From positions 1 through 64,000 of the forward strand of contig JAFIGS010000010.1 of the NCBI GenBank assembly GCA_017849615.1: DNA of 64,000 bases, read 5' to 3'. Origin of the DNA: Pseudolabrys sp. GTDB lineage: Bacteria; Pseudomonadota; Alphaproteobacteria; Rhizobiales; Xanthobacteraceae. Under the pieces are notes generated by a model that saw only the letters and a list, made by a program, of their open reading frames with translations, was not told the origin of the DNA and ran no database searches. Positions 22,085 through 41,050 of the stretch are shown here, one piece after another. The number at the start of each line of letters is the position of its first letter. The stretch's first letter is position 1. Made by a program: the position numbers and the translations under genes.

Positions 22085-22091
22085 CAGTTGC

Positions 22092-23699
22092 TCACAACGC
22101 CGCCAGACGATCGGCGATCGGCTTCGGCGCCCAGTCCGCCTTGAGGCCGAGATCGGCCAGGATCACCTGCGCGGCGTTGTAGCCCGGCAGGCCGGTGATG
22201 TTGCCGCCCGGATGGCTGCTGGAACCGCACAGATAAAGGCCCGAGACGTGACCGCGATAGTGACCGGCGCCGCGGAACGGACGGTCGTAACCGATCTGCC
22301 CGTTGGTGAAGGCGCCAATCAGCAGATCGCCCTCGCGCATGTTGGGCAGGCTGCGTTCGACATCGAGCGCCGAGCGCGTGAACGAGCCCATCACCGCGTC
22401 GGCGAGGTTCGGCGCATGCTGCTTCCACAGATCGAGCATGTCGCTGCCATGCTGATCGCGCGCGGCATCCCAGTTGCGGGCATCGCCATTGAGGCGGTAC
22501 GGCAGCTTCTCCCACATGAAGGCGGTGTGCTTGCCGGCTGGTGCCTGCGACGGATCGAAGATAGTCGGCGTCGCGCCCCACATCACCGTCGGCGGAATGG
22601 TGCCGGCTTCGTGATGGCGCACGATCTCGGGATACTGATCGACATGGTCGAGACCCATGATGACCATGAACGCATGATCGAGTTCAGGACGCTTTTCGGC
22701 CAGCTTGTATTTCGGCGCTTCACTGAGATTGAGGTTCAGGCCGAACAAGGGCGCGATGAGATTGTACTGGAATTTCTCGACCTGCTCGCGATAGGCGCGC
22801 GGCAGGTAAGCCTCGTCGATGAGATCGAGGAAAGTCTGATGCGGATTGAGCGACGACGCCACGAAGCTGCGGGCGCGGATGATCTCACCGCTCTGCGTCT
22901 CGACGCCGACGGCGCGACCGTTCTCGATGACGATGCGCTTCGGCTGCGTCAGCACGCGTAGCTTGCCGCCCGCCTCGCGCACCGCGTTTTCCAGTGCTCG
23001 GCCGAGGGCCGCGGTGCCGCCGCGCGTCATCTGCGCCTTGGCCGGGCTCGCCAGCAATGCTGCGATGTGATGACCGAAGCCTTTCACGCGAAGATCGACT
23101 TCGCGCAGACCGTTGAAGAACAGAAGGCCCGCCTGAATGACCGGATTTTCGAATTCTTGATGGACGAATTCGAGCGGCGACAGCGCGCTGACTTCGAGCA
23201 GGCGGCGGCCGGTGGCCGACTTCTGCAACAGGGTGCGGCGCTCGTCGGGATGCAACGGCGGCGACTTTGCTTCGTGCGCGAGAATGTTCTGCACGACCGG
23301 CACGAATTCCTCGTGCCAGCGCGTCAACGTTTCGGCATCGCGCTTTGAGAATTCGGCGAAGGAGGCGACGGTCTTCTTGAAGTCCGTCCACCATTGCAGC
23401 GCGCGGCCATCGCTGGTCAGCAGCGCGACATTGAGCTCGGGCTCGATATAGGACGCGCCGTGGCGCACCAGTTCGAGGTCCTCGTACCAGGGCATTGCCG
23501 TGATGGCACGCTGGAAGAAGGCGTGCGTGTTGTGCAGGAAGCCGGGAAAGCGCGGGTCTTCCATGGTGGCGGCGCCGCCACCAACATGATCGGCGCGGTC
23601 AACAACAATAACATCAAGGCCTGCCCTGGCGAGATAGGCATGAAGGATGAGGCCGTTGTGGCCGCCACCGATGATGATGCCGTCATAGACTTCGCTCAT
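22092..23699 (-). CDS. phytoene-desaturase-like FAD oxidoreductase
   Basis: Starting at the ATG at 23699 the protein has 535 residues. The N-terminal FAD-binding motif IIIGGGHNGLILHAYLARAGLDVIVVD and the C-terminal GLYLCGSSSHPGGNITGLPGYNAA are diagnostic of the NAD(P)/FAD-dependent phytoene dehydrogenase-like (CrtI/Pyr_redox) group. No carotenoid genes are nearby, so it more likely acts in the local catabolic pathway. The frame extends to 23798 without similarity. It heads a five-gene operon whose promoter region holds operator 1. Confidence 0.85.
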   Translation of the reverse strand: MSEVYDGIIIGGGHNGLILHAYLARAGLDVIVVDRADHVGGGAATMEDPRFPGFLHNTHAFFQRAITAMPWYEDLELVRHGASYIEPELNVALLTSDGRALQWWTDFKKTVASFAEFSKRDAETLTRWHEEFVPVVQNILAHEAKSPPLHPDERRTLLQKSATGRRLLEVSALSPLEFVHQEFENPVIQAGLLFFNGLREVDLRVKGFGHHIAALLASPAKAQMTRGGTAALGRALENAVREAGGKLRVLTQPKRIVIENGRAVGVETQSGEIIRARSFVASSLNPHQTFLDLIDEAYLPRAYREQVEKFQYNLIAPLFGLNLNLSEAPKYKLAEKRPELDHAFMVIMGLDHVDQYPEIVRHHEAGTIPPTVMWGATPTIFDPSQAPAGKHTAFMWEKLPYRLNGDARNWDAARDQHGSDMLDLWKQHAPNLADAVMGSFTRSALDVERSLPNMREGDLLIGAFTNGQIGYDRPFRGAGHYRGHVSGLYLCGSSSHPGGNITGLPGYNAAQVILADLGLKADWAPKPIADRLAAL

Positions 23700-23825
23700 C
23701 CCGCCCACCTTCCAACACTCAATTCCGCGATCCGGTCCGGAAAATCGCTTTCGAACCGCCCGGAAATGTGCGCGACCGCTCAACTGCGGCCTGTTCACAA
23801 CGCTAGCTTTGGCTTCGCTATTTTG

Positions 23826-23841
23826 TCAACTATCTAGTTGG
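23826..23841. promoter_or_regulatory. TetR-type operator 1 (divergent promoter, left)
   Basis: TCAACTATCTAGTTGG matches TCAAC-N6-GTTGA with one change, and overlaps GTCAAC-N10-GTTGAC (23825-23846). It lies in the 229-base divergent region, 127 bases before the minus-strand operon start. The same 16-bp pattern occurs at 23899 and 28143, always at promoters of this locus. Confidence 0.65.
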
Positions 23842-23898
23842 TTGACGTAATTACAAACTTCATTTTTCCTTGACAACAACAGGCTCGCGCGCCCAGTG

Positions 23899-23914
23899 TC
23901 AACCAAATAGTTGA
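23899..23914. promoter_or_regulatory. TetR-type operator 2 (divergent promoter, right)
   Basis: TCAACCAAATAGTTGA has perfect TCAAC/GTTGA half-sites six bases apart. It ends fifteen bases before the start codon of the DapA-like gene, where binding would block transcription of that operon, which also encodes the TetR protein. Confidence 0.7.
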
Positions 23915-23928
23915 TACGGGAACACGCC

Positions 23929-24990
23929 ATGCCGCTCACCATTGCCGACCTGCCGGACGACATGCGCGCCCGCATCAGGGACGGCCTTGCCATCCCCGCG
24001 CATCCGCTGGCTCTGACCGCCGACCGCAAACTCGATCAACGGCGGCAGAAGGCGCTGACACGTTATTATGTTGATGCCGGTGTTGGTGGCCTCGCCGTCG
24101 GCGTTCACACCACGCAGTTCGCGATCCGCGACGTCGGCCTCTACAAGCCCGTGCTTGAAATGGCGATGGAAACGGCCACAACATGGGCTCAGCGCCCGGT
24201 GGCGATGATTGCCGGCGTTGTCGGCAAGACCGAACAAGCGGTGAAGGAAGCAGAAACGGCCGCCGGTATCGGCTATCACGCCGCCCTGCTCGGCGTCGCG
24301 GCCCTGCGCGGCGCCAGCGAGGACGAACTGATCGAGCACTGCCGCCGCGTCGCCGCCGTCATTCCGGTGTTTGGCTTCTATCTGCAGAAAGCGGTCGGCG
24401 GCACCCCGCTGTCGGAGAATTTCTGGCGCCGCTTTGCCGAGATCCACAATGTCATCGGCATCAAGATCGCGCCGTTCAACCGCTACAATACGCTCGACGT
24501 CGTGCGCGGTGTCGTCGCCGCCCGCGCCGAGGATCGCGTCACGCTCTACACCGGCAATGACGATCACATCGTGCTGGACCTGTTAACGCCCTTCACCGTG
24601 CGCCGCGGCAGCGAGACCGTCGACATGCGCATCAAGGGCGGCCTGCTCGGCCACTGGAGCGTCTGGACCAAGGCCGCGGTCGAGGTGTTCGAACGCTGCA
24701 AGCGCGCCGCCAATGGCGCACCGGTCAGCGCCGAGATGCTGGCGCTGGATTCGAAAGTCACCGCCTGCAATCAGGCGGTGTTCGATGTCGCCAATGATTT
24801 CCACGGCGTCATCGCCGGCTGCCATGAAATCCTTAGGCGCCAAGGACTGCTTGAGGGTATATGGTGTCTCGACCCCCACGAGGGACTGGGGGCCGGCCAA
24901 GGCGACGCGATTACGCGCATGGCACAAGAATTTCCGGAACTCACGGATGATGCTTTCGTCGCGGCCAACCTATCGCGTTGGCTCGGCTGA
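23929..24990 (+). CDS. dihydrodipicolinate synthase (DapA) family protein
   Basis: This 353-residue protein has the features of a class I aldolase/lyase of the DHDPS/NAL family. GGLAVGVHTTQF is equivalent to the GTTGE region, GFYLQKAV is the Tyr region, and IGIKIAPFNRYNT supplies a Schiff-base lysine in the IKI motif. Family members cleave or condense pyruvate-containing substrates. It is too divergent for a biosynthetic DapA. A start at 23929 is preferred to 23911 since the extra residues fall in the operator. It heads the plus-strand operon. Confidence 0.8.
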   Translation: MPLTIADLPDDMRARIRDGLAIPAHPLALTADRKLDQRRQKALTRYYVDAGVGGLAVGVHTTQFAIRDVGLYKPVLEMAMETATTWAQRPVAMIAGVVGKTEQAVKEAETAAGIGYHAALLGVAALRGASEDELIEHCRRVAAVIPVFGFYLQKAVGGTPLSENFWRRFAEIHNVIGIKIAPFNRYNTLDVVRGVVAARAEDRVTLYTGNDDHIVLDLLTPFTVRRGSETVDMRIKGGLLGHWSVWTKAAVEVFERCKRAANGAPVSAEMLALDSKVTACNQAVFDVANDFHGVIAGCHEILRRQGLLEGIWCLDPHEGLGAGQGDAITRMAQEFPELTDDAFVAANLSRWLG

Positions 24991-25014
24991 AGACGCAGCG
25001 AGACAACAGCCACT

Positions 25015-25743
25015 ATGGCAAAGACAGCGACCAAGGCGACGGCAAAGACAACCGTCAGGAAGACCAAGAAACGCTCGCGCAGCGCGCCGGCGACCGCGGC
25101 GAAAGAGGACAATGCGTCCCGCCGCACTCTGATCGAAGCGGCGAAAAAGGAATTCGCGCGCAACGGTCTGTTCGGCAGCCGTGTCGACGAAATCGCCAAG
25201 GCGGCGAAGATCAACAAGCAGCTGATTTATTATTACTTCGGCGAGAAGGATAATCTCTATCTCGCAGTGCTCGAGGACGTCTACACCGACATCCGCGCCC
25301 ACGAGAACGCGCTCGATCTCGGCTCGCTCGATCCGGTCGCGGCAATGGAAAAACTGGTCGGCTTCACCTTCGATTACGTGATGGACAACCGCGCCTTCGT
25401 TCAGCTTCTCACCAATGAGAACATGATGGAGGCCAAGCACGTCAAGCGTTCGAAGGTGATCAAGTCGACGCATACGCCGATTGTCGATCTGGTCAGCCAG
25501 ACCCTGTCGCGCGGCGAGGCCTCCGGCGTGTTCCGCCCGGGCATCGCCCCGGTACAGCTTTACATTTCGATCGCCGCGCTATGCTTCTTTTACAGCGCCA
25601 ACATCCACACACTCGGCATTCTGTTTGACCGCGACTTCCGCAGCAAGAGCGAGATGGCGGAACGCCGCGCCCATGTCATCGACTTCGTCATGGGCTCGCT
25701 GATCGGCGGCAAGATGTTGGGAAAAATTCACTCGCGGTCCTGA
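25015..25743 (+). CDS. TetR-family transcriptional regulator
   Basis: The 242-residue protein has a Lys/Arg/Thr-rich N-terminal tail of about 30 residues, then a TetR HTH (RRTLIEAAKKEFARNGLFGSR...INKQLIYYYFGEKDNLYLAVLEDVY). A helical ligand-binding domain with MDNRAFVQLLTNENM follows. It is encoded 24 bases after the DapA-like gene, inside the locus whose three promoters share a TCAAC-N6-GTTGA site, so it is the obvious candidate to bind them and to sense the pathway substrate. Confidence 0.9.
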   Translation: MAKTATKATAKTTVRKTKKRSRSAPATAAKEDNASRRTLIEAAKKEFARNGLFGSRVDEIAKAAKINKQLIYYYFGEKDNLYLAVLEDVYTDIRAHENALDLGSLDPVAAMEKLVGFTFDYVMDNRAFVQLLTNENMMEAKHVKRSKVIKSTHTPIVDLVSQTLSRGEASGVFRPGIAPVQLYISIAALCFFYSANIHTLGILFDRDFRSKSEMAERRAHVIDFVMGSLIGGKMLGKIHSRS

Positions 25744-25753
25744 AGCATTTGCT

Positions 25754-26596
25754 ATGCAGATCATCGCGCTCACCGACGCCGACATTGCGGCCTGCATGGC
25801 GCTGTCCACCGAAGCCGGCTGGAATCAGAACGAGGCCGACTGGCGCCGCATCATGGGCAGCGGCGAGGCCCATGGCCTGCGTGACGGGGACCCGCTGATC
25901 GCGTCATCGGCCATCCTGCCCTATGGCACCGCCTTCGGCTGGATCTGCATGATCCTCGTCACCGCCAGCGCCCAGCGCCGTGGCCATGCCATGCGGCTGA
26001 TGAAAGACTGCATCGATCGGCTCGAGCAGCGCGGCTCCGTCGCCGGTCTCGACGCCACGCCGGCTGGACGCTCGGTCTACGTTCAACTTGGCTTCAATGA
26101 CATCTTTCCGATCACGCGCTTCTATGCCGGGCGGCCATCCGCCGATGACAGGCCGTGCGCCGGCCTCACCATCACGCCGCTATCGGCCGCCGACTGGCCG
26201 GACGTGCTGGCGCTCGACGCAACATCGTTCGGCAGCGACCGCGTCGCGCTTCTCAAGGCTTTGCAGGCCGACCGACCCAATCTTGCTTTCGTCGCGCGAC
26301 GTGGTGGCGCGTTCGCCGGCTTTTCGCTCGGACGCAGCGGACGCTTCACCACACATATCGGCCCGGTCGTTGCCGATAAGCAGAACGCCGCCTGCGCTTT
26401 GATCAACGCCGCGCTGCGCACCATCACCGGTCCCGTCAGCATCGACGTGCCGGATCATCAACCCGAACTTGTTGCATGGTTGGAGCGAAACGGATGTAGT
26501 AAACAACGTGGCTTCACGCGCATGTTGCGTGGACGCAAGATCGCCTTCGGCAATCCGCAACTGACCATGGCCATTACCGGCCCGGAATTCGGCTGA
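25754..26596 (+). CDS. GNAT-family N-acetyltransferase
   Basis: The 280-residue protein carries an N-terminal acetyltransferase core (ITALTDADIAACMALSTEAGW...GWICMILVTASAQRRGHAMRLMKDC), where VTASAQRRGHA is the acetyl-CoA binding R/Q-x-x-G-x-A loop. A second GNAT-like C-terminal half (LTITPLSAADWPDVLALDATSFG...) follows, which is the common two-domain form (YitI-like). The substrate is unknown. It starts eleven bases after the TetR gene in the same operon. Confidence 0.85.
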   Translation: MQIIALTDADIAACMALSTEAGWNQNEADWRRIMGSGEAHGLRDGDPLIASSAILPYGTAFGWICMILVTASAQRRGHAMRLMKDCIDRLEQRGSVAGLDATPAGRSVYVQLGFNDIFPITRFYAGRPSADDRPCAGLTITPLSAADWPDVLALDATSFGSDRVALLKALQADRPNLAFVARRGGAFAGFSLGRSGRFTTHIGPVVADKQNAACALINAALRTITGPVSIDVPDHQPELVAWLERNGCSKQRGFTRMLRGRKIAFGNPQLTMAITGPEFG

Positions 26597-26608
26597 AAAG
26601 GCTGCCAT

Positions 26609-27976
<1,368 letters not shown>

Positions 27977-28142
27977 CTTTTCGGTTTTCATTGACGGGTT
28001 TTCTTCACACGAACCAGTGCCCACCTCGCTTGAAAACGCTTTTCGCGCCCTTTCGAGTGCCGCCATTCTGGCGCGCGAGCCTGAAAAATCACCGCCGGAC
28101 GGGCCAAATACCTATTGAGCCGGCCCGGGTCTTGATGCAAAA

Positions 28143-28158
28143 TCAACCAACTAGTTGA
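28143..28158. promoter_or_regulatory. TetR-type operator 3 (binding-protein promoter)
   Basis: TCAACCAACTAGTTGA has the same half-sites and spacing as operator 2, differing at one base. It ends 22 bases before the ABC binding-protein start. This links that separate transcription unit to the TetR-controlled locus. Confidence 0.7.
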
Positions 28159-28180
28159 TCCATAACCGGGGAGCCCGAGA

Positions 28181-29152
28181 ATGATCCGCTTCAAATCCGC
28201 GATTTTGGCCGCCGCCATGCTGCTGCCGGGCGCGACTTATGCCGCCGCTCAGAACGTCGCCATCACGTTGAACTGGACCATCGGCGCCGACCATGCGCCA
28301 ATCTACTGGGCGCAGCAGCGCGGCCTCTATAAGGCCGCCGGCATCGACCTGAACATCGAGATCGGCAAAGGTTCCGCCTATGCGGCGCAGCGCGCCGCGA
28401 TCAACGCCTCGCAGTTCGGCATCGTCGACATGCCCACCGCCATGCAGGCCCGCGCTACCGGTGCCGACATCGTCGCCGCTTTCGTCATCTACGATCAGTC
28501 GCCCTATACGATCTACTGGAAGAAGAGCAGCGGCATCGCCACCATCAAGGATCTGCCGGGCAAGAAGATCGGCACGCCACCGGCCGACGCCGCGCGCCTG
28601 ATGTGGCCGGCGATCGCCAAAACCGCCGGCATCGATGCAAACTCGGTGAGCTGGGTGAACCTCGCGCCGGATGCCAAGTTCGCCGCGCTGCAGTCGGGCA
28701 CGATCGACGTAACGACGAACTTCTATAACCTGCACTTCGCCGCCGAGCGCCTGTTCGGGGCCGACTTGGGTTTCCTCCGCCTGTCGTCGATCGGCTTCAA
28801 CCCCTATGGCAACTCGATCTTCGTCAACGGCGCCTGGGCCGCCGCCAATCCGGACGTGACCAAGAAGTTTATCCAGATCACGCAGAAGGCCTATGCCGAT
28901 TGCGTCAAGACGCCGAAGCCGTGCCTCGAGTCGATCGTCAAGGCCGCGAGCCAGAATCCGGCCGACGTGGAGAAGTCATGGGTTCTGACCGCCGAGCTGA
29001 TGAAGGCGCCGGGCAATGATGTGTTCGGCAGCTTCAAAGACGACCGTGTCGCCAAGGACTACGACCTCGTCACCACGATCTTCCAGACCAAGCCCTATGA
29101 CTACAAGACGATCTTCACCAACAAGTATCTCGACGCTGCGCTGAAGAACTAA
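28181..29152 (+). CDS. NitT/TauT-type ABC substrate-binding protein
   Basis: The 323-residue protein has a signal peptide (FKSAILAAAMLLPGATYAAAQ). The NMT1/THI5-like fold follows: VAITLNWTIGADHAPIYWAQQRGLYKAAGIDL, then IVDMPTAMQARATGADIVAAF and the domain-closing segments. It is periplasmic and would feed the permease/ATPase pair at 18225-19849, which shares its predicted operator. A strong terminator follows at 29170. Confidence 0.9.
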   Translation: MIRFKSAILAAAMLLPGATYAAAQNVAITLNWTIGADHAPIYWAQQRGLYKAAGIDLNIEIGKGSAYAAQRAAINASQFGIVDMPTAMQARATGADIVAAFVIYDQSPYTIYWKKSSGIATIKDLPGKKIGTPPADAARLMWPAIAKTAGIDANSVSWVNLAPDAKFAALQSGTIDVTTNFYNLHFAAERLFGADLGFLRLSSIGFNPYGNSIFVNGAWAAANPDVTKKFIQITQKAYADCVKTPKPCLESIVKAASQNPADVEKSWVLTAELMKAPGNDVFGSFKDDRVAKDYDLVTTIFQTKPYDYKTIFTNKYLDAALKN

Positions 29153-29169
29153 AAGCTTGCCACAAATAG

Positions 29170-29203
29170 AAATGGCGGGTCTTTTACAGACCCGCCATTT
29201 TTT
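29170..29203 (+). terminator. rho-independent terminator after binding protein
   Basis: AAATGGCGGGTC pairs with GACCCGCCATTT across a 7-base loop, a 12-bp perfect stem ending in a T run. It is 18 bases after the stop codon. Confidence 0.9.
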
Positions 29204-29511
29204 CGTCCGCGCGACCGCTTTGCCGCATTAAGACCTCATGCCTGATTTCAGGTTGATCGACGGAATGATTTCCAGCTTATCCAGCGTGGTGGGCGCATCC
29301 TTTGCTTTTAATTTTTTTGCCTTTTTAGACTCGTATTCGTCACGGCTGTGAGAATCCACTATGGCGGGATTGGGATGCCTTCCACGACAGCGTCTAGGGT
29401 CGTTGAGCGAGGACTTGCACGCGGTCGCTGCGAACCGTGCAAGATCGCGTACATCCATTCCGTACGGCGCTAACCCTTACGGGCAAGAATGTGGTAAGTC
29501 ATTGAAATCGT
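29204..29511. other. gap with one doubtful small ORF
   Basis: The 308 bases left of the island hold no confident gene. A minus-strand frame of 76 codons (29228-29458) ends in a lysine-rich stretch and LEIIPSINLKSGMRS, but it has no recognised family and no convincing ribosome site. It could be a small hypothetical gene. Confidence 0.25.
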
Positions 29512-29527
29512 TGGCGCTCCCTAGGGG
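29512..29527. repeat. attL core
   Basis: TGGCGCTCCCTAGGGG is identical to the last 16 nt of tRNA-Glu (with CCA) at 41051-41066. The next base differs. It marks the left recombination junction. Confidence 0.85.
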
Positions 29528-29563
29528 GCTAACGCTTCCGTTTGCAATCAGTACTTTAGCGCG

Positions 29564-29623
29564 TAGTGGGACAGTGATCTTTCTCGTTCGGTTACTGCGC
29601 TTTCCGGCGGCATTGTCCCACTA
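29564..29623. repeat. candidate integrase arm sites, left end
   Basis: TAGTGGGACA (29564-29573) and TGTCCCACTA (29614-29623) form a perfect 10-bp inverted repeat 40 bases apart, beginning 37 bases inside attL. The core TGTCCCACT recurs once at 40980-40988, 62 bases inside attR. Repeats on both sides of a tyrosine-integrase core are typical arm-type binding sites. Confidence 0.6.
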
Positions 29624-29716
29624 GCACCGGCCCGATCGCATCGTCGTCACGCCGCCCCCGCGCCCCCCGCCGGGCGGCGCGGATTTTAAATTTTGAGAGC
29701 ATCAGCGAGTGTTGTC

Positions 29717-29914
29717 ATGGCCGATCAGCCAATCGACCCAGGCCGTCTGGATGCCTGGATTAGGGACATGCGAGCGCAGCTGAATCGCATCGACAAGGCG
29801 CTCCAGCCGCCCGAGGGGCGGCCAACTGCGCACCGCCGGACCCTTTATCGGAAGCGTCGGCGGCAAGCGGCCAGCGAGGCCCTGAGGCCCGCGCGCTATA
29901 CGATGACGCAATGA
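29717..29914 (+). CDS. small hypothetical protein of the island
   Basis: A 65-residue basic protein (MADQPIDPGRLDAWIRDMRAQLNRIDKAL...) with a likely coiled or helical first half and an Arg/Lys-rich second half. No family was recognised. The ribosome site is weak. Its last codons run into the TGACGCA repeat array, so the 3' end may be constrained by that array. Confidence 0.4.
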   Translation: MADQPIDPGRLDAWIRDMRAQLNRIDKALQPPEGRPTAHRRTLYRKRRRQAASEALRPARYTMTQ

Positions 29915-30180
29915 CGCGTCAATGACGCATCAATTTCGATGTGTCATTGCCAAAACTCCAACCCAGTCATAAGGATAACTGCGTCCATGACGCAATGACG
30001 CATCATTTGCTCGCGCGTACTTAAGAAGAATGGGGAGCGGGGTGCCCGGAGGCTCTTCTTATACGTATAGAATAAAATGATCCGTCATTGCGTCATAGAG
30101 CAGTATAAAGAATTGATATAGAACAACAAAAGACAATGACGCATTATTTTCCAATGCGTCAAAGATGCGTCATTGCGTCA
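29904..30180. repeat. TGACGCA heptamer (iteron-like) array
   Basis: TGACGCA occurs at 29904, 29923, 29988, 29996 and 30137, and its complement TGCGTCA at 30089, 30155, 30166 and 30174. A palindromic TGACGCGTCA sits at 29912. Four tandem pairs have an exact 8-base period: two forward on the left (29904/29912, 29988/29996) and two reversed on the right (30081 with one mismatch/30089, 30166/30174). The middle (30060-30135) is AT-rich. This could be a replication origin, a packaging site or a multi-site operator. Apart from the last codons of the preceding ORF, no coding sequence is apparent from 29904 to 30311. Confidence 0.8.
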
Positions 30181-30235
30181 TTGACTGACCTGATGGCTAG
30201 AGCGGCCCACACCGACGCCAAAGAAATCCTGCAAA

Positions 30236-30252
30236 GGGGTCGCGCTATATAG
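30236..30252. promoter_or_regulatory. 17-bp repeated promoter-like motif, copy 1
   Basis: GGGGTCGCGCTATATAG is identical to 35138-35154. It lies 59 bases before the gpW-like start; the second copy lies 76 bases before another island gene. Both are followed about 20 bases later by GGCAT. This is likely an island-specific promoter or activator site. Confidence 0.55.
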
Positions 30253-30311
30253 GCCACCCGCTTACTCAGGCATCATCGAGTTGATGGCTCGCCGACGGGA
30301 AGCTACGCCAC

Positions 30312-30521
30312 ATGGCCTATACGCAAACTCATATCGACGCTCTGAAAGAGGCAATCGCCACCGGCGCGCTTGAGGTCGAATTCGGCACCGGCACGGAACG
30401 CCGCCGTATCAAGTATCGCTCCTTGGCGGAAATGCGCTCGACGCTTGCCGACATGATCTTCGAAGTGTCACCGCAATCGAGACCGATATTGGTGACTTTC
30501 GCTGAATTCACCCGAGATTGA
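30312..30521 (+). CDS. gpW-like head-tail joining protein
   Basis: The 69-residue protein (YTQTHIDALKEAIATGALEVEFGTG...RIKYRSLAEMRSTLADMI) has the helix, beta-hairpin, helix layout and the YRSL(A/D)EMR signature of small gpW-family connectors. These normally sit between terminase and portal genes and seal the filled head for the tail. Here neither neighbour is present; the next gene is a tape-measure protein. GGGAAG lies upstream of the ATG. Confidence 0.65.
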   Translation: MAYTQTHIDALKEAIATGALEVEFGTGTERRRIKYRSLAEMRSTLADMIFEVSPQSRPILVTFAEFTRD

Positions 30522-30626
30522 AGGCCAGCCAGGCAGCGTCAACGTGTCGGGTCCTTCCCCACCCCCGCCCCCTGCGGTGCTAAGCCGCCCCGGATTCCTT
30601 CCAGTTGGGCTGTTCGAAAACTTTGG

Positions 30627-30739
30627 TTGTCAGAGTTGTCAGCCATTGACAGACGGTTGTCAGCTTAAGTGGCTGATCGGCTTACAAAAACTCCTAGTTA
30701 GCTTTTTTTGAAGAGCGCTGCGGCTGTCAATGTTGACAG
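30627..30739. repeat. TTGWCAG heptamer array upstream of tape-measure gene
   Basis: TTGTCAG or TTGACAG starts at 30627, 30636, 30646 and 30657, spaced 9-11 bases, so on one helix face. A perfect palindrome CTGTCAATGTTGACAG at 30724-30739 has two more in inverted orientation. The array ends 30 bases before the tape-measure start. The motif differs from the TGACGCA array, implying a second DNA-binding protein. Confidence 0.7.
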
Positions 30740-30769
30740 ACCCCGCGCGTCACGCCCGGAGACACCAAC

Positions 30770-32995
30770 ATGGCCAGCCGTATTCTCGACGCCGAAGCAC
30801 GCATTTCCGCGCGGGACAATACCGGCGGCGCCTTCGACAGCGTTGCCAACAAGGTAAATCGCGTGACGCGCGCCGTGCAGGCTCTGTCGCGCGATCTCGA
30901 CAAGCATATGGCGTCCGCTGGCAAGGCCAGTTCGATCGATGTGCTGGCGTCCCGGCTCGATCGCGTTGGTAACACTGCTTCGCGCGTTGGCCGCAACATG
31001 ACTTACGGCCTGACGTTGCCGGCGGCATTCGCAGCGCGTTCCGTCCTGCACAATATTCATGATTTCGAACTGGCGTCGAACAAGCTCAAGGCGTTCGGCG
31101 ATCTTAACGAGGAGGAGATCAAGCGCGCCCGCGGCCTGGCGCAGAAATACGGCTCCAAATATGCGTTCGGTCCGACCGGCGTGCTGCAGGGCATGGTCGA
31201 GGAGATCAAGGCCGGTTTCGAGCCGCGTCACCTTGAGGCCATTCAGGAGCCGTTGCTCGATTTCGCGACGCTCGCCGAAATCGATGTGCCGAAAGCGGCC
31301 GAACTGGCTATTTTCTCGCTGTCGTCGTTTGGCATGATGTACGACAAGACCGGGCGCATGCTCGGCGATGCCGAGATCAACAAGAACCTGCGCGAAATGA
31401 TCGACCTGTTCGCGATCCTCAACAAGGTCGCGCCCGGCTCGATCGGCCAGATCGCCGAGACGTTCAAGTATTCCGCGCCGGCGGCGGCGCAGCTTAATTT
31501 GCCCAAGGAACAACTCGGCGCGATGACGGCCGTTCTCAATCAGGCCGGTATTCTCGGCCCCGAGGCCGGCGTCGCCCTGCGGTCCATGTTGGTCCGCTTC
31601 CTCAAGCCCACAAAAGGCGCTCGCGCTGCGATGAGCGCGGTCGGTATGCGTCTTGGCGATTATGTCGAAATCAACCCGGACCGCCTCAATTCGGAAAACG
31701 TACTTTCGGCCATCGAGAACTTCACCGGCACGGTCGGAACCGGTAAGGACAAGAAGTCGATTTCGGTCGGTCGGCAGTCTGAAATAACCCGCGAAGCATT
31801 CAAGAAGAAAATCGAGGCGCTTGGCGGCCTTGACGGGGACGAATATTTCAAGGGCCTTGTCGGCACCATTCAGCACACCATCGGTGGCGGGCTGGCCGAT
31901 GCGTCTGTCGCGACCGAACTTGCTGGGCGTATTCTTGGCACGGCGGTCGAAAAAATCGACGTGAGTAAGTTTCTTAAGGACGTGGCGACGAAGGCGCCGA
32001 ACATGGCTGCCTTCATGGCCAATTTTATGGATCAGCGACAGGCCGTTCGTCTTGCAAACCTCAATCAGGCGCGCGTGATGACCATGCTTATGGACATGGA
32101 AATGGAATTCGCTGCAGCCCGACGGAGCGGAGTACCCGTTTCCCGACGCCAAGCCGGCGATGTGAACAGCGGCTTCATCGATTCGGAAAACCGTTTGCGC
32201 GGTTCTTACCAGGGGATGATCCAATCGCTCGGCGAGTCCGGCGTCACCGATGCCGCCGCCGAATCGATGGACAAGATCGCCGGCGCCTTCCGGACGATCG
32301 GCGGCACCAATCCCGAAATCCTCAAATGGTCGACTTACGCGGTCGCGGCTGCGGCCGTAATCGGTCCGCTGACGTGGGCGCTCGGCAAGTTGGCATCGTC
32401 CGGCGCCGCCGTTGTGCGCGCGGCCGGATGGATTGCCGCCGCGCCCGGCGCGGCTGCTACCGGCGCTGTGATCGGCGGCGCGCTCGGTGCGCAGGCGATC
32501 AAGAACGCCGCCGAGCCCTTTGTCGATGCGGCAAAGGGCAAGAACTGGACGCCGCGCGACGCGGAAGCGATCAAGCTTCTGGAACAGGACCTTGCCGAAG
32601 CCGAACGCCGTGCCGCGCAGGCCCGCGCCAACTCGAAGGTGTCCGGCCTCGGCGATACGCTTGCCGCGCCGTTCGATGGCCAGGCACAGGACCTGCGCAA
32701 CCGCATCCGGACCGGTTACGACCAGTTCAATGCGCAGACCGGTCGCTTGAGCGAGGCGACGCGCGACGAAATCATGCGCCGTGCGGAAGCGGATGTCGCC
32801 GGCGCCGGCCGCAAGGTCGAACTGGAAGGCATGGTGCGGATCGAGAATAAGGTCACAGTTGAGGCGGGGCCAGATTTCTGGACCCGCGTCAAATCTCTCG
32901 TGTTCCCGTCATTCGGCCATGGTGTGCGAAGTGAAGGCACGACCGGATCAACCGGCACGGCCATGCCCGAAGCATCGCCATACAGTAGCCCCTGA
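30770..32995 (+). CDS. phage tail tape-measure protein
   Basis: The 741-residue protein starts with RILDAEARISARDNTGGAFDSVANKVNRV, as TP901-type tape-measure proteins do. The helical core includes TMP motifs (PTGVLQGMVEEIKAGFE, APGSIGQIAETFKYSAPAAAQL, LGAMTAVLNQAGILGPEAGVALRSM). Hydrophobic segments follow at about 520-575 (VAAAAVIGPLTWALGKLA, TGAVIGGALGAQAIK). The length predicts a short to medium tail. No other tail gene follows, which is unexpected for a complete phage. Confidence 0.85.
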   Translation: MASRILDAEARISARDNTGGAFDSVANKVNRVTRAVQALSRDLDKHMASAGKASSIDVLASRLDRVGNTASRVGRNMTYGLTLPAAFAARSVLHNIHDFELASNKLKAFGDLNEEEIKRARGLAQKYGSKYAFGPTGVLQGMVEEIKAGFEPRHLEAIQEPLLDFATLAEIDVPKAAELAIFSLSSFGMMYDKTGRMLGDAEINKNLREMIDLFAILNKVAPGSIGQIAETFKYSAPAAAQLNLPKEQLGAMTAVLNQAGILGPEAGVALRSMLVRFLKPTKGARAAMSAVGMRLGDYVEINPDRLNSENVLSAIENFTGTVGTGKDKKSISVGRQSEITREAFKKKIEALGGLDGDEYFKGLVGTIQHTIGGGLADASVATELAGRILGTAVEKIDVSKFLKDVATKAPNMAAFMANFMDQRQAVRLANLNQARVMTMLMDMEMEFAAARRSGVPVSRRQAGDVNSGFIDSENRLRGSYQGMIQSLGESGVTDAAAESMDKIAGAFRTIGGTNPEILKWSTYAVAAAAVIGPLTWALGKLASSGAAVVRAAGWIAAAPGAAATGAVIGGALGAQAIKNAAEPFVDAAKGKNWTPRDAEAIKLLEQDLAEAERRAAQARANSKVSGLGDTLAAPFDGQAQDLRNRIRTGYDQFNAQTGRLSEATRDEIMRRAEADVAGAGRKVELEGMVRIENKVTVEAGPDFWTRVKSLVFPSFGHGVRSEGTTGSTGTAMPEASPYSSP

Positions 32996-33007
32996 GAGGA
33001 GAATTGA

Positions 33008-33280
33008 ATGGACCCCCACATCAATCGACTATTGGCGCTACAAGCGACTGATCGGTTTCTGATCGAGTTGGCCTATCGTTCGGTGCTTGCGGTCATACCC
33101 CCCGAGCAGCGGGCCGCACTCCTCAGCGATATGCGCTCCGCGCGCTCCCGCGTAACAACGACTCGCGTCGTGGGTGCCGACAACAACGCATCGATCAAAG
33201 CCGAAATCGAGACGATGGTCGAGGTGGACGTGCAAGCGTTCGCTGACCGCATCGAAAGTACTTCCGGCCTAAGAAACTAA
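33008..33280 (+). CDS. hypothetical island protein, 90 residues
   Basis: It starts twelve bases after the tape-measure stop with AGAGGAG six bases upstream, so it is translated in the same operon. The sequence (MDPHINRLLALQATDRFLIELAYRSVL...) has a helical start and an acidic C-terminal half. No family was recognised. The position after the tape measure would suit a small tail or chaperone protein. Confidence 0.6.
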   Translation: MDPHINRLLALQATDRFLIELAYRSVLAVIPPEQRAALLSDMRSARSRVTTTRVVGADNNASIKAEIETMVEVDVQAFADRIESTSGLRN

Positions 33281-33435
33281 CGAGTTCTTTCCCCCGCCCC
33301 TGCGCGCCTGGCGCGCTCGGTCGGCGCCATCCTTCGCTGTTCGGCCTCATGATCCTCTCGCGCCGCCAGCCGCGCCATCGCGCGGGCGAGCGCCAGGACC
33401 GCGGGATCGGGCGGCGGACGGGAATCTGCGGTCAT
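33277..33435 (-). CDS. small hypothetical protein on the opposite strand
   Basis: A 52-codon minus-strand frame reads MTADSRPPPDPAVLALARAM and continues with a charged Ala/Arg/Glu helix. Short proteins of the pattern DPAVLALARA-x-A are recurrent in rhizobial mobile regions, as far as I recall. It overlaps the previous gene's stop by four bases, tail to tail. No strong ribosome site is visible. Confidence 0.4.
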   Translation of the reverse strand: MTADSRPPPDPAVLALARAMARLAAREDHEAEQRRMAPTERARRAGAGERTR

Positions 33436-33467
33436 GGTGCAAATCTAGCCATCGCTACCGGTGCTGC

Positions 33468-33647
33468 CAAAGTTGCGAAAATCGCAAACTTGCCGCCATT
33501 GGCGGCGGCTGATTCTCGATGTAACTTTCGGATTGGGCCTAGAAACCCGGACCTGAGTGACGGCTACCGCTTGGCGGCGGTTGTCGAAATGCGCCGTGAG
33601 CCTTGGCGGGCTCTATGCGCACGGTCGCGCCTTGGCGGGCGCGCCAA
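33468..33647 (+). other. hairpin cluster with constant TTGGCG loop
   Basis: Three hairpins share the hexaloop TTGGCG on different stems: ACCGC/GCGGT (33566-33581), GAGCC/GGCTC (33598-33613) and CGCGCC/GGCGCG (33626-33643). Before them lie GCCGCC-ATT-GGCGGC (33492-33506) and an imperfect dyad around TTGCGA-AAA-TCGCAA (33473-33487). This fills most of the 242-base gap before the basic peptide gene. The identical loops on varying stems suggest protein-bound RNA hairpins, although repeated DNA operators are an alternative. Confidence 0.6.
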
Positions 33648-33677
33648 CCTGGCCATTTTGGCCGGGAGGGCGCTGCC

Positions 33678-33794
33678 ATGTCCAGCCGAAAGGTAAAAGC
33701 GCGCCGCCAGTCTCTCAGGCTGGTTTCTAGCTCCCGGCTGCCGGTCCGCCACCGGCCAGGCCCTAGAAAGCCGAACTTGAGAGCGATCCCATGA
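33678..33794 (+). CDS. 38-residue arginine-rich peptide
   Basis: The ATG at 33678 has GGGAGGG seven bases upstream, and the TGA overlaps the next ATG at 33791, so it is well placed for translation and coupling. The peptide MSSRKVKARRQSLRLVSSSR plus a basic, proline-containing tail has about 13 Arg/Lys in 38 residues. It looks like an RNA-binding arginine-rich motif or a DNA-condensing peptide. No family was recognised. Confidence 0.55.
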   Translation: MSSRKVKARRQSLRLVSSSRLPVRHRPGPRKPNLRAIP

Positions 33795-34369
33795 CCATGA
33801 CCGAGAACCGGTGCGACACTGCCGCGCCCGCGCATCCCGCGCGGCCAGTGTTGGAGTATCCGATGTCGCTGCAAAACTACTTTCCGCAAAGCCACCTCGA
33901 CGCCGCTTTAATACAGCTCGGCGATCACTTCCTCGATCTGCGCATGCAGAGCCTCGCGGCTTCCAGCCGCAACGAAGCCAATTGCGAACGTCTCGCCGAT
34001 CTTCGGCGCAAGCATCCCGCAGCCGCGCGCAACCGAGCGCTCGACGACAGGCTAGCGACCGAGACTGGCGTCGTCGCCTCGGAAGCGGAGATTGATCGCC
34101 TTAGCGCCGAAGAAGATGCGATCATCGAGCAGATCATTGCAGCCCCACCGCGGACGATCGAAGGGCTTTGCGTCAAGGCGATCATCTTGGAGCATGTGCA
34201 CGAACTCTATTGCCGCGGCGCCGGCGATGAAGGCTATGAGACGCAAATGGTTCGATCACTCGCGCGCGCCGCCATATCGCTCGCCGGCATTCCGACCGAG
34301 CCGCGGCAGCAGATCGAGGCCGTCATGCGCGCATCGGCGCATCCCTCTGGTCAGATGATCGCCGCCTGA
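33791..34369 (+). CDS. hypothetical island protein, 192 residues
   Basis: It is translationally coupled to the basic peptide gene. The protein is mainly alpha-helical and polar: RNRALDDRLATETGVVASEAEIDRLSAEEDAIIEQI, then PRTIEGLCVKAIILEHVHELYCRG and SLARAAISLAGI. There is no signal peptide, membrane helix or catalytic motif. Similar-looking proteins occur in rhizobial phage-like regions as far as I can tell, with no known function. M25 is an alternative start. Confidence 0.6.
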   Translation: MTMTENRCDTAAPAHPARPVLEYPMSLQNYFPQSHLDAALIQLGDHFLDLRMQSLAASSRNEANCERLADLRRKHPAAARNRALDDRLATETGVVASEAEIDRLSAEEDAIIEQIIAAPPRTIEGLCVKAIILEHVHELYCRGAGDEGYETQMVRSLARAAISLAGIPTEPRQQIEAVMRASAHPSGQMIAA

Positions 34370-34571
34370 CCGGCGAATCGCACGCGCAAATATCAGCGCC
34401 CGGCGGCCGTCCCGCCGGGCGACTGGCCGTACACCTGTGCAACGCCCGCAAATTTATTTTGTTGGTCTCGTAAAAACTTATTGGCGCTTTCGCGCTCAGA
34501 AGCCGCAGCCCCCCTTGCCTGCGGCCTTCGCCCTTTGCGATGTCGGCTTAAACCTTAACCCGAGGCTGCCC

Positions 34572-35135
34572 ATGCCCCGTTCAAGACGCCCGGCGACGTT
34601 TCGACATGCGATGTTTATCAAGGCATGGCATCTCGATCTCGCCGCGGACGTTCTCAATAACGGTGCGCTGCGACGTTCAAAGCAAGACCAGCTCTGCAAC
34701 GCGATCGCGTACTACTGCTTCCTGAAATCGATCGCCCTCGAAAGCGCGGAGATGACCGCATCGCCGCATCTTGTGAAAGTCGATTCCAGCATCGATCTCA
34801 GCAAGATCGGCGCGGGCATGGATCGCCATGCCGACGCCGTGCGTCAAGTCATGACATTGGACACTATCATCGGCGACAAGGTAGCCAAGGCGATCAAAGC
34901 GCACTTTATCGAAGGTCAGCACATTAAGGTCGCCGGCCTATGTCTGCAGGGGTTGCGTCACGATCCAAACGCAGTCGGCTTTGCGTTTCAGTGGGAAGTC
35001 CAGCGGGCAGCCAAAGAACTTTTCATTAAGTTCAACAGCTACGCCTCGGATCACGAATTCCACTCGGATTTCATCCGGTCCGACTCGCTCGGTCTGTTCC
35101 TGAAAATGAACAACCGGGTCAGAAAATTCGCATAA
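34572..35135 (+). CDS. hypothetical island protein, 187 residues
   Basis: The ATG at 34572 has GAGG six bases upstream. The frame is open from 34437, but the extra 45 residues look non-coding. The product begins with a basic stretch (PRSRRPATFRHAMFIKAWHLDLA) and is helical after that, with ASPHLVKVDSSIDLSKIGAGMDRHADAVRQ in the middle. It resembles no family I recognise. It ends just before copy 2 of the 17-bp promoter-like repeat. Confidence 0.5.
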   Translation: MPRSRRPATFRHAMFIKAWHLDLAADVLNNGALRRSKQDQLCNAIAYYCFLKSIALESAEMTASPHLVKVDSSIDLSKIGAGMDRHADAVRQVMTLDTIIGDKVAKAIKAHFIEGQHIKVAGLCLQGLRHDPNAVGFAFQWEVQRAAKELFIKFNSYASDHEFHSDFIRSDSLGLFLKMNNRVRKFA

Positions 35136-35137
35136 GT

Positions 35138-35154
35138 GGGGTCGCGCTATATAG
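35138..35154. promoter_or_regulatory. 17-bp repeated promoter-like motif, copy 2
   Basis: GGGGTCGCGCTATATAG is identical to 30236-30252 and is followed by GGCAT at a similar distance. It lies 76 bases upstream of the gene at 35231 and would start transcription of the capsid operon. Confidence 0.55.
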
Positions 35155-35230
35155 CCGCGTACCCTATTCCGGCATTGTACCGATTTGCGCCTCGGCGCTT
35201 TCCCCGCCCTAAATCCACAGGAGTTTAAAC

Positions 35231-35839
35231 ATGGCTCTCCCCAGAGCAATGATCAGCCTCGCCGATCTGGCTCGGCTGAGCCAGATGTCGCTTGCCGAAC
35301 TCACCGCGTTCGCCGAACGGCCGGTGCCCGGCCATCCATTCAAGTCCGGCACTTATTATCTCGATGGCCCCTCGCCCGCCGGCAAGTTCGGCTATCTCGC
35401 CGCACTGCGAATCGAGGTCGCGCGGCAACTTTCGGATGATGGCTGGCTGCCTTTCTCCGCGGCGATGGACGCCGTGATCTACACTGGCGCCCTGTCGGCC
35501 TATAGCGGCGATCTGCCCGCGCCGCGCTTCGCGCCGGATCAGGACTATTGGGTCGCCGTATTAGGCGCACGCACAAACTGGGGCGCGCAGCCGCGAGAAG
35601 GCTGGCCGGCTACTGGCTTTGGCCCTGGCGAGGTTTGGACGCAAGGCCACTTCGACGGCACTTACGATGTCGTCGTCGGCGCGATCAAATCGCGCATCAT
35701 CCGCGACACGATGGCGGCCGATGCGGACGGCAACGAGCCCGACGATTTCGCGCGCGTGCTGCTGGCCAACGTTTCGGCCGCCGATCGCCGATTGCGCAAA
35801 CGCGCCGCGGCGCTCGGCATCAATCTCGGCGACGCCTGA
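35231..35839 (+). CDS. hypothetical protein upstream of capsid gene
   Basis: This 202-residue protein has AGGAG seven bases before its ATG. The first 60 residues (ISLADLARLSQMSLAELTAFAERPVPGHPF) are helical with an HTH-like pattern, and the rest is mixed with many aromatic residues (FAPDQDYWVAVLGARTNW). It precedes the capsid fusion gene by 17 bases. It may be a regulator or a morphogenesis helper; no family was recognised. Confidence 0.6.
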   Translation: MALPRAMISLADLARLSQMSLAELTAFAERPVPGHPFKSGTYYLDGPSPAGKFGYLAALRIEVARQLSDDGWLPFSAAMDAVIYTGALSAYSGDLPAPRFAPDQDYWVAVLGARTNWGAQPREGWPATGFGPGEVWTQGHFDGTYDVVVGAIKSRIIRDTMAADADGNEPDDFARVLLANVSAADRRLRKRAAALGINLGDA

Positions 35840-35856
35840 CAGATAGAGGGACCTTC

Positions 35857-37773
35857 ATGACCAAGCCTGCCCAACGGCGCCGGACCAAACCGGCGCCGCA
35901 AACTTTTGTGCGCCGTGCCGAGGTGCGCGGCTCATCCTTCCATGCGGCGACCGGATCATTCTCCGCCGTTATCGCCACCGAAACGCCGGTGCGCCGGCGC
36001 GGCTACGACGGCGATTACTTGGAAGTTCTATCGCTCGCGCCTGGCGCCGTCCGCATGCAGCGGCTCACGTCCGGCGCCGCACCGTTGCTCGACTCGCATC
36101 GCGCCGGCTCAACGCACGACCAGATCGGCATCGTCACCGACGCGCGTATCGAAAGCGGGCGCCTCATCGCCGAAGGTCGTCTCTCTGCGCGCGACGATGT
36201 GAAGCCGATCGCTTCCGATCTCGCTGGTGGCACGCCGCCGAATGTCAGCGTCGGCTATCGCGTTTACGCGAGCGAGGAAAGCCGATCGAAGGACGGCGTC
36301 CTGATCGTCACGCGCACGGATTGGGAACCGTTTGAGATGAGTTTCGTGCCGATCCCGGCCGATCCGAAAACTTTTATCCGCAGCCTGAAAGGTAATGATA
36401 TGGACGACGATATCATCGAACACGACGATACGACGATCGAGGAAAGTCGCTCGACTGAAATCGAGACGCGCTCCGCACCCAAACGCAGGATGTCCGATCG
36501 CGACGCTCGCGTTGCTTACGAAATTTGTGCAAGCCAGAACATCCCGGGCGACTTTGCGCGCGGCCTTATCGACGACGGCCGCTCGCTCGATGAATTCCGT
36601 TCGGCCGTGTTCGATCGGCTCGCCGATCAGGCTAACCGCACGAAAACCGGCGGAGTCCGCGAACCCGGCACCGGCAACAATTTCTCCAATCCGGAATTTC
36701 TCAGCCGCTCGATCGAAGATGCGCTCTACGCGCGCATGACCGGCGCCGCGCCGGAAGGTGCTGCCCGTGAACTTGTCGGCCGTTCGCTGATCGACCTCGG
36801 CGCCATGATCATGGAATCCCGCGGCGAACGCGTCTCCTGGGCGCGGCGGTCTGCGATTGCCGATCAGATGTTGATGACTCGTTCGGATATGGGCGGGCAT
36901 CACACGACCAGCGACTTCCCGATCCTGCTTGCTAGCGCCGGCAACCGTGTGCTGCTCGACTCGTTCAAGGTGGCCGAGTGCCCCCTCAAGGCCATCGCCC
37001 GCCGCCGCAATGCGGCCGACTTTCGCGCCATCTCCATGCTGCGGCTGAGCGAAGCGCCGCGGCTCGATAAAGTCGGCGAAAGCGGAGAAGTCAAATACGG
37101 CACGCGGTCGGAAACCAAGGAAGGCTTCAAGGTCGAGACCTTTGCCAAGATATTCGGCATCTCGCGCAACGCCCTGATCAACGACGACCTCGGCGCTTTC
37201 GCGGACTCCCATCGGGCGTGGGGCCGTGCTGCCGCGGAAACGGAAGCAGAGTTGCTCGTTTCGCTGTTCACCGCCAATGGCGGCAATGGCGTCAACCTGG
37301 ACGATGGCAATCCGCTGTACTCGACCGCGCGCGGCAACAAGGCGGCCGCAGCTTCGGTCATCGACCTCGCCAATTTCTCGCTTGCGCGCCAGGCGATGCG
37401 GGAGCGCAAGGGCCTCGACGGCAAATCGCCGATCAGCGTGACGGCGAAGCACCTCGTTGTCGGCCCCGCGAAAGAGACCGAAGCCGAAGTCTTGGCGACG
37501 GCGATCAACGCGGCGAAACTCTCCGATGTCAACCCGTTTGGCGGCAGGGTGACCGTTCACGTCGAACCGCGCTTTCCGGGCAACGCCTGGCGCCTGTTCG
37601 CCGACCCGGCCGAGGCCGATGTCGTGACGATCGGATATCTCGACGGCAACATCGGGCCTAAGGTCGATGTGCGCGAAGGCTGGTCGACGCTCGGCGTGGA
37701 ATTCCGCTGTGTGCTGGATTTCGGCTGCGGCATCAGCGACTGGCGCGGCACGCATCTGAACGCCGGCGCTTAA
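35857..37773 (+). CDS. prohead protease-major capsid fusion protein
   Basis: The 638-residue protein joins an S78-type prohead protease (about 1-185: VEVLSLAPGAVRM-like strand, LLDSHRAGSTHDQIGIV with the catalytic His, PPNVSVGYRVY with the Ser, WEPFEMSFVPIPADP) to a capsid protein. The capsid half has a charged scaffold-like linker, then ARRSAIADQMLMTRSDMGGHHTTSDFPILL and the Mu gpT-like fold to the end. Such fusions self-process to a HK97-fold shell. GAGGG lies upstream of the ATG. No portal or terminase accompanies it. Confidence 0.85.
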   Translation: MTKPAQRRRTKPAPQTFVRRAEVRGSSFHAATGSFSAVIATETPVRRRGYDGDYLEVLSLAPGAVRMQRLTSGAAPLLDSHRAGSTHDQIGIVTDARIESGRLIAEGRLSARDDVKPIASDLAGGTPPNVSVGYRVYASEESRSKDGVLIVTRTDWEPFEMSFVPIPADPKTFIRSLKGNDMDDDIIEHDDTTIEESRSTEIETRSAPKRRMSDRDARVAYEICASQNIPGDFARGLIDDGRSLDEFRSAVFDRLADQANRTKTGGVREPGTGNNFSNPEFLSRSIEDALYARMTGAAPEGAARELVGRSLIDLGAMIMESRGERVSWARRSAIADQMLMTRSDMGGHHTTSDFPILLASAGNRVLLDSFKVAECPLKAIARRRNAADFRAISMLRLSEAPRLDKVGESGEVKYGTRSETKEGFKVETFAKIFGISRNALINDDLGAFADSHRAWGRAAAETEAELLVSLFTANGGNGVNLDDGNPLYSTARGNKAAAASVIDLANFSLARQAMRERKGLDGKSPISVTAKHLVVGPAKETEAEVLATAINAAKLSDVNPFGGRVTVHVEPRFPGNAWRLFADPAEADVVTIGYLDGNIGPKVDVREGWSTLGVEFRCVLDFGCGISDWRGTHLNAGA

Positions 37774-37780
37774 GACAATT

Positions 37781-37856
37781 TACCGGTGGGGTGTTCCTGA
37801 GGGCGTCGCGGCCACGTCCAACAACAGCAAGTTCACCTCCCTGCCCCCCACCGGTA
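37781..37856. repeat. 11-bp inverted repeat between capsid and HTH genes
   Basis: TACCGGTGGGG (37781-37791) is perfectly complementary to CCCCACCGGTA (37846-37856), 54 bases apart, eight bases after the capsid stop. It may fold the 3' end of the capsid mRNA or bind a regulator of the integrase genes. There is no T run, so it is not a standard terminator. Confidence 0.5.
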
Positions 37857-37897
37857 CCCTGCACGCGACGGCGCGGGGACGAGACAGTGGGGTTAAG

Positions 37898-38197
37898 GTG
37901 AGCGCCGGCCGCACCAATTTTTCATTGCGATACGCGCATTCCATGACGACACCAACCGCCACAGCGCCGGCGCGCGAGCCAAAAAGCGCGCTACCACCAT
38001 CGTTGCCGCCGCGCGGCTTGTCGCGCGCGCAAGCGGCCGAATATGTCGGCGTCGGCGCGACCTTGTTCGATCAGCTTGTGAAGGACGGGCGGATGCCGCC
38101 TGCGAAGCGAATCAACGGCCGGACGGTTTGGGATCGGCGCCGGCTTGACGAAGCGTTCGAGGCCCTTGACGATGGCACCGGGAACCCTTGGGACTAG
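37898..38197 (+). CDS. HTH protein, AlpA/excisionase-like
   Basis: The frame encodes 99 residues with a low-complexity Ala/Pro N-terminus and a MerR-like winged HTH (RGLSRAQAAEYVGVGATLFDQLVKDGRMPPAKRINGRTVWDRRRLDEAF), the type used by excisionases and AlpA regulators. It overlaps the integrase reading frame's upstream end and is next to it, as excisionase genes often are. The GTG at 37898 has a weak ribosome site; an ATG at 37943 is an alternative. Confidence 0.75.
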   Translation: MSAGRTNFSLRYAHSMTTPTATAPAREPKSALPPSLPPRGLSRAQAAEYVGVGATLFDQLVKDGRMPPAKRINGRTVWDRRRLDEAFEALDDGTGNPWD

Positions 38198-38199
38198 GG

Positions 38200-40283: not shown

Positions 40284-40297
40284 AGCGACCATAAAAA

Positions 40298-40988: not shown

Positions 40989-41050
40989 GTAATGCCGGGT
41001 GGAACATAACTTTGATTTTATCAAGTGAAATCAAAGCTGAATTTTCGGGC

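Follow-up and report, generated by a model that had tools for sequence, protein, structure and literature searches.

According to PMC6092414 (partial text), PICIs replicate from a site 3′ of their initiator gene, and the E. coli PICIs shown there always have an AT-rich region between two sets of iterons. P4, SaPIs and PLE carry an initiator of their own (PMC7145576, partial text). Both iteron origins 3′ of a Rep gene and satellites without key replication genes, such as Mulch and Flayer (PMC10690885, partial text), are already known. Origins next to primase genes are also annotated in phage records. The record of Sfi21 holds an origin of replication of 302 bp, non-coding, labelled 'phage inhibitory sequence' and overlapping the end of a putative primase gene. 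In the record of A2 a rep_origin overlaps the end of a putative primase that matches the Rep of phage contig L036 (see below). The ACGGGAG repeats of this A2 region form a mirror image about its AT-rich centre.

The window analysed here, that is, the whole stretch of 64,000 nucleotides, contains an island of 11.56 kb (29512–41069) bounded by a 19-bp direct repeat (18 positions identical) at tRNA-Glu. Its features are the following:

29512–29530, no strand: attL, left direct repeat, located by BLAST of the tRNA region against 22001–40500; 18/19 identical to the tRNA-Glu 3′ end, with an exact 16-bp core TGGCGCTCCCTAGGGG
29717–29914, + strand: smA, a 65-aa ORF whose end overlaps the first iterons; common to the G021 and L037 elements
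30312–30521, + strand: 69-aa ORF between the array and the cos-like block; no Pfam match; 44% over 59 aa in L032
30548–30665, + strand: cos-like block, GGGTCCTTCC plus TTGTCAG repeats; probable packaging site, separate from the array
30770–32995, + strand: tape-measure protein of 741 aa; 74% identity over its full length to the phage G391 counterpart
35860–37773, + strand: fused protease/major capsid protein (Pfam PF25209, PHROG 4523); start chosen within ORF 35548–37773
37898–38197, + strand: AlpA/excisionase-like HTH protein; HTH_17 below the Pfam cut-off, PHROGs transcriptional regulator and excisionase families
38188–39222, + strand: tyrosine integrase (PF00589)
41051–41069, no strand: attR, right direct repeat, in the 3′ end of tRNA-Glu(CTC), 41051–41126 on the − strand

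Being small and integrated, with an integrase, a specific att site, an incomplete set of virion genes (capsid and tape measure), and an origin and cos-like block in common with L036 and G391/L040, two larger phages described below, the island resembles a phage satellite. The integrase and AlpA-type regulator expected of PICIs are present, the HTH match of the latter being weak in Pfam and stronger in PHROGs; an initiator of the island's own (pri/rep) was not recognised. The absence of a known replication gene from the element, pointed out in an earlier sequence-only reading of this DNA, was borne out: scans of 14 island ORFs with Pfam and PHROGs brought up no recognisable terminase, portal or replication protein. 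Likewise, tblastn with the Reps of L004 and L036 found nothing in the island or in the related elements L029 and L037, apart from one chance match (E 0.19) in L029, and both controls (L107 and L031) were found.

Other parts of the island deserve mention in their own right. Its right end (39219–40804) encodes a trypsin-like protein and a 168-aa protein (PHROG 25606), which had no match in the sister loci compared and are predicted to be cargo. A segment of about 1 kb (33312–34375) with two uncharacterised ORFs has 89% nucleotide identity to satellite L004, above that of the other segments shared with L004. An exact 17-bp repeat, GGGGTCGCGCTATATAG, occurs at 30236–30252 and 35138–35154, one copy preceding the 69-aa ORF and the other the capsid operon. 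Among 99 loci compared, only own-genome loci contained its 15-base core, and the repeat is possibly a shared promoter or operator.

The 277 bp at 29904–30180 hold nine exact TGACGCA/TGCGTCA heptamers, starting at 29904, 29923, 29988, 29996 and 30137 on the + strand and at 30089, 30155, 30166 and 30174 on the − strand, together with a palindromic variant, TGACGCGTCA, at 29912–29921. This clustering, on which the earlier reading was built, is real, since in 200 simulated 64-kb windows (first-order Markov) the densest 277 bp contained 1, 2 or 3 heptamers. An equal density elsewhere, which that reading had taken as speaking against the array, was not seen within the window, where the heptamer reached at most two per 277 bp outside the array. 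The tandem 15-mer TGACGCANTGACGCA is present twice in the 4.4-Mb genome, both times within the array, and its reversed control pattern has 0 copies there. The four 8-base-period pairs originally described were retained in part: those at 29988/29996 and 30166/30174 are exact, those at 29904/29912 and 30081/30089 each have one member mismatched once, and four singleton sites exist besides (29923+, 29940− with one mismatch, 30137+ and 30155−). Allowing one mismatch, pairs and singletons thus make an array of 12 sites that reads +++−++/−−+−−− (the slash marks the centre), with spacings of 8,11,17,48,8/85/8,48,18,11,8, a near-perfect mirror. Its parts are:

29904–29946, no strand: left outer iteron module, + + + − (29904, 29912, 29923, 29940)
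29988–30002, + strand: left inner iteron pair, TGACGCAATGACGCA
30012–30043, + strand: central core CGCGCGT...TAAG...GGGG..GGGG, conserved by alignment in the arrays of L036, L040/G391, G021 and L037
About 30061–30140, no strand: AT-rich stretch, 65–72% A+T in 40-bp windows, off centre
30081–30095, − strand: right inner iteron pair, a TCCGTCA variant and TGCGTCA
30137–30180, no strand: right outer iteron module, + − − − (30137, 30155, 30166, 30174)

The AT-rich centre of the earlier description therefore needs correction: an AT-rich stretch does lie between the halves, at 30061–30140, and is a candidate unwinding region, but the A+T content does not peak at the geometric centre, where CGCGCGT and two GGGG runs are found. 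CG-rich and GGGG motifs are also found between the half-arrays of RcapNL and Pan4. Non-coding iterons, their arrangement in two mirrored sets and an AT-rich or melting region, the traits of phage origins served by a P4/D5-type primase-helicase, were all found at the locus, the first iterons overlapping the end of smA.

A 17-base piece of the array was present in nine viral contigs. L036 is a 45-kb phage contig with a GpA-type terminase, and G391 is a 47.9-kb phage record (L035, L107) to which contig L040 is identical over 2762 bp. In L036 and G391 a homologous TGACGCA array follows a primase-helicase gene, beginning no more than 20 bp past its stop codon. The two Reps share 73% identity; the domain recognised is D5_N in L036 and, in the L040 fragment, Pox_D5. 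The window array aligned with the arrays of L036 and G391/L040 over about 290 bp at 70% identity, with the 12 sites in register, and the L036 spacings (8,11,18,48,8/85/8,48,18,11,8) form an exact palindrome. A position directly downstream of a cognate Rep gene is thus occupied by the arrays of L036 and G391 and not by that of the island; for this reason the latter is proposed to work like such an origin, with Rep provided in trans. Elsewhere among the contigs, L038 and L039 have arrays adjoining a VapE-type and a D5-type protein, respectively, in L041 the array is weak and close to a DUF3987 protein, and L034 and L042 contain the 17-mer just as a pair inside a coding frame. No named phage was matched by the array or the cos-like block in BLASTN searches.

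The iterons have been preserved to a greater extent than their surroundings. In an alignment of five arrays, 72/84 iteron columns were invariant versus 59/198 other columns, a result equalled by 2 of 281 circular shifts; between the window and G021, 82/84 iteron positions (97.6%) and 125/192 spacer positions (65.1%) were identical, equalled by 1 of 275 circular shifts, both comparisons being somewhat favoured by an iteron mask drawn from the same alignment. In the island's own family, a 17-mer from the array was found in 2/391 genomes (its own and G021). In the genome contig collection the 17-mer was present in 32 stretches, of which only L073, a G021 contig, contains the array; the other 31 have at most three copies in 400 bp.

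Arrays after Rep genes were surveyed more widely. In 20/20 loci with an L004-type (DUF5906) Rep (19 viral loci matching the L004 Rep, plus L031; several are near-duplicates), the commonest 7-mer after the true Rep stop, in 5–11 copies, surpassed that of every other 560-bp window of the locus, weakly so in L014 (5 vs 4), and the arrays started −15 to +88 bp from the Rep stop. For L036, one other window, a coding repeat, exceeded the array in the 7-mer test. AmM-1, Pan4, Pthi1, RcapNL and L108 (28%-identical Rep) have arrays of other words after the primase. No array was seen after the primase of RR1-A, and the Sfi21 repeats were not above background in the 7-mer test. The window array itself is very probably a replication origin for a primase-helicase of the P4/D5 class.

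The mirrored layout was scored in 27 regions using the commonest 7-mer of each and allowing one mismatch. Inner inverted sites were present on both sides in 19 regions, on one side in three (L031, L003, L084) and on neither in five (L014, L015, L095, L083, L039), a count made without a null model on regions that were picked after the arrays had been seen and many of which are related. Left out were the near-duplicates L012, L018, L022, L024, L025 and L027, and also L041, L080, L082 and L094. The start-to-start central gap was 80–90 bp in 18/27 regions, and the spacing was exactly palindromic in L029, L036, L021 and L023, which use three different words. Tentatively, and at somewhat below even odds, P4/D5 and DUF5906 elements could share a mirrored origin grammar (outer ++−, inner ++/−−, outer +−−) in which the 7–9 bp word varies with the initiator, and satellites that wear the word, the cos-like site and even the tape measure of a helper could so drop their own initiator. 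In the open-licence literature searched (partial texts), neither the mirrored layout nor a satellite with a helper-matching tape measure was found.

Relatives of the island capsid were found in 5/43 genomes of the same genus, its own included, and in viral contigs L003 and L004, the protease/capsid protein being 50–90% identical to the versions of the sister elements; with 64–68% identity to G021 and L011, the island capsid groups with those of satellites. L004 encodes a DUF5906 helicase-like protein with relatives in L011–L013 and G024 (L031), and in these sister elements a mirrored array of another word (GTCCTAG, GGTCCAA or GGTCCTA) lies right after the stop of the L004-type Rep. By contrast, the G021 element (L029), inserted at tRNA-Val(CAC) with an exact 51-bp att repeat in copies about 10.9 kb apart, and the 12-kb contig L037 have the window's own word and no Rep match; as L037 may be a fragment, the absence of Rep from it is weak evidence. 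The conservation in sister elements anticipated by the sequence-only reading therefore extends to G021 and L037, whereas other sister satellites have kept the layout and changed the word. ORF smA had relatives in L029 (57% over 28 aa) and L037 (54% over 28 aa) by tblastn, no match in the phage records G391 and L036, which are perhaps incomplete, and no match in Pfam. As a separate observation, a 132-aa ORF just before the array of L037 (3352–3750) resembles by eye the stand-alone winged-helix end of a D5-type Rep, a likeness for which Pfam and BLAST gave no support.

The cos-like block, some 370 bp further downstream than the array, contains GGGTCC and, in most elements, TTGTCAG-like repeats; the GGGTCC box could be aligned in 10/10 elements that we had chosen. 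In L036, L040, L037 and L003 the block adjoins a terS-like gene (DUF1441, below the Pfam cut-off), and in the genus it was found in 3/43 genomes, each time within such an island. Lambda-type cos sites combine a cosQ-like GGGTCC box beside terS with TerS-binding repeats, and by analogy with them the block at 30548 is read as a putative cos site.

Similarity to the phages extends to a structural gene. Over the contig parts compared, the island and G391/L040 are 70% identical in the array, 79% in the cos-like block (on L040) and 76%, at the nucleotide level, in the tape-measure gene; the tape measures, of 741 aa in the island and 740 aa in G391, are 74% identical as proteins, and the capsids 32–36%. 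Three sister elements have tape measures of 609–696 aa with different middles, similar to that of the island at the ends only. Satellites may thus carry tape measures matched to their helpers. A scan of viral contigs with the island tape measure returned no relative; as the same scan missed that of G391, which does encode one, this silence means little. Phage L036 and element L037 have 83% identity in their arrays (282 bp) and 81% over a stretch of 1294 bp that takes in the terS-like gene. According to contig names, L036 and L037 have one metagenome number in common, as do phage G391 and satellite L004. No helper was found in the island's own genome, where the cos-like block is restricted to the island and a search with both Reps, run without a positive control, found nothing.

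The close match between the array and the origins of larger phages makes it probable that the island relies on a replication protein of theirs. Our preferred reading, with a probability of roughly 0.7, is that the array is the origin of an 11.5-kb phage-satellite-like island fired in trans by a helper phage primase-helicase of the L036/G391 kind. It draws on the layout of the array, its homology to Rep-adjacent arrays, the conservation of its iterons, the lack of a Rep match and the shared cos-like block and tape measure; use in trans is suggested by the absence of a recognised Rep, by cis elements common to island and phages, and by the upkeep of the iterons. The sequence-only reading had offered an origin served by an initiator of either the host or a helper; the helper form is well supported, by the lack of a recognised replication gene in the island and by the homology to arrays lying right after phage primase-helicase genes. 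From these features we infer Rep binding, helper dependence, replication direction and packaging as follows. The twelve TGACGCA iterons form two mirrored half-arrays, with the GC-motif core and the AT-rich stretch between them. A D5/P4-type primase-helicase would bind these iterons, open the duplex and start synthesis, perhaps bidirectionally. This initiator would come from an L036/G391-like helper phage that has these iterons in its own origin, and the replicated island DNA would then be packaged through the separate cos-like site, which also matches phages of that kind.

Homology of its tape measure to that of G391 means that the island could descend in part from a G391-like phage with loss of Rep. 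It might then be a relic of a phage or satellite that once had a D5-type Rep and keeps the origin passively, without replication either alone or with a helper. The 74% identity of the tape measures, the match of cos-like block and origin, as in a partial deletion derivative, and the failure to find a helper in its own genome fit such a history. It is nevertheless unlikely, because the array has been kept without a Rep match in the window, in L037 and in G021, an element with 64% capsid identity that is inserted at tRNA-Val instead of tRNA-Glu; because iterons are conserved far above spacers between the window and G021; and because the capsid groups with satellites, not with G391. Several island proteins have no known function, so that one of them might be an unrecognised initiator. 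The 65-aa smA, for instance, could fire the origin together with host enzymes, as it adjoins the array in 3/3 elements with this word and no Rep match and is absent from the G391 and L036 records. We consider this improbable, given that smA is too small for a helicase or primase, that no domain was found in it and that its position is taken by a D5-type Rep in the phages sharing the array.

The 'phage inhibitory sequence' label of the Sfi21 origin brings up a different role, in which the array would chiefly titrate the initiator of the helper, thereby inhibiting the phage and not replicating the island. A decoy would presumably need neither the conserved core nor the full mirrored spacing, and decoy and origin roles are compatible, so the chance that titration is the chief role appears slim. 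The sequence-only reading had further proposed a packaging site or a regulatory switch. In the RcapNL record (JQ066768.1; L083, L093) 'cohesive overhangs' are indeed placed inside the repeat region after the P4 primase; PMC8601537 gives the RcapNL genome, in the table consulted, as circularly permuted, and a separate, conserved cos-like block lies beside terS-like genes in the phages and, in the window, some 370 bp past the array. Packaging was for this reason rejected as the main reading. A regulatory operator was rejected too, the recurrent neighbour of such arrays being a Rep gene, and either role for the array now seems very improbable.

If the preferred reading, initiation in trans by a helper phage protein, holds true, a lineage that gave up its own initiator and kept a phage-matching origin would show how dependence on the replication machinery of a helper evolves. 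Comparison of iteron word, cos-like block and tape measure would then allow the helper to be predicted from sequence data. A mirrored layout whose words can be exchanged, with inner inverted sites on both sides in 19/27 chosen regions, is also a means of locating origins of this type and of matching initiators to the sites they use.

Capsid-forming PICIs are helper-dependent satellites with a capsid gene of their own; the window island differs from them in having a tape-measure gene and no recognised terminase or portal. Like the annotated origins of Sfi21 and A2, the phage arrays described here are repeat regions directly after a putative primase, mirrored in A2 around an AT-rich centre; those two origins stand beside their own primase in a full phage, whereas the present array is part of an 11.5-kb island without a recognised Rep. 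The island also differs in this respect from its sister elements L004, L011–L013 and G024 (L031), which encode an L004-type Rep. With Gram-negative PICIs and SaPIs, some of which carry a phage cos or pac sequence, the island shares an AlpA-type regulator and an integrase; PICIs encode their own pri/rep, whereas the island encodes none that was recognised and has capsid and tape-measure genes and the iteron word of larger phages (PMC6092414, partial text). Replication of the Vibrio cholerae PLE similarly requires helper-encoded functions and uses iterons, with the difference that PLE encodes its own initiator, RepA (PMC7145576, partial text). Mulch and Flayer, satellites of Streptomyces phages, similarly encode encapsidation machinery and miss key replication genes; they belong to another host phylum and no shared origin is named for them in PMC10690885 (partial text), whereas the window island has a cis element homologous to the origins of phages.
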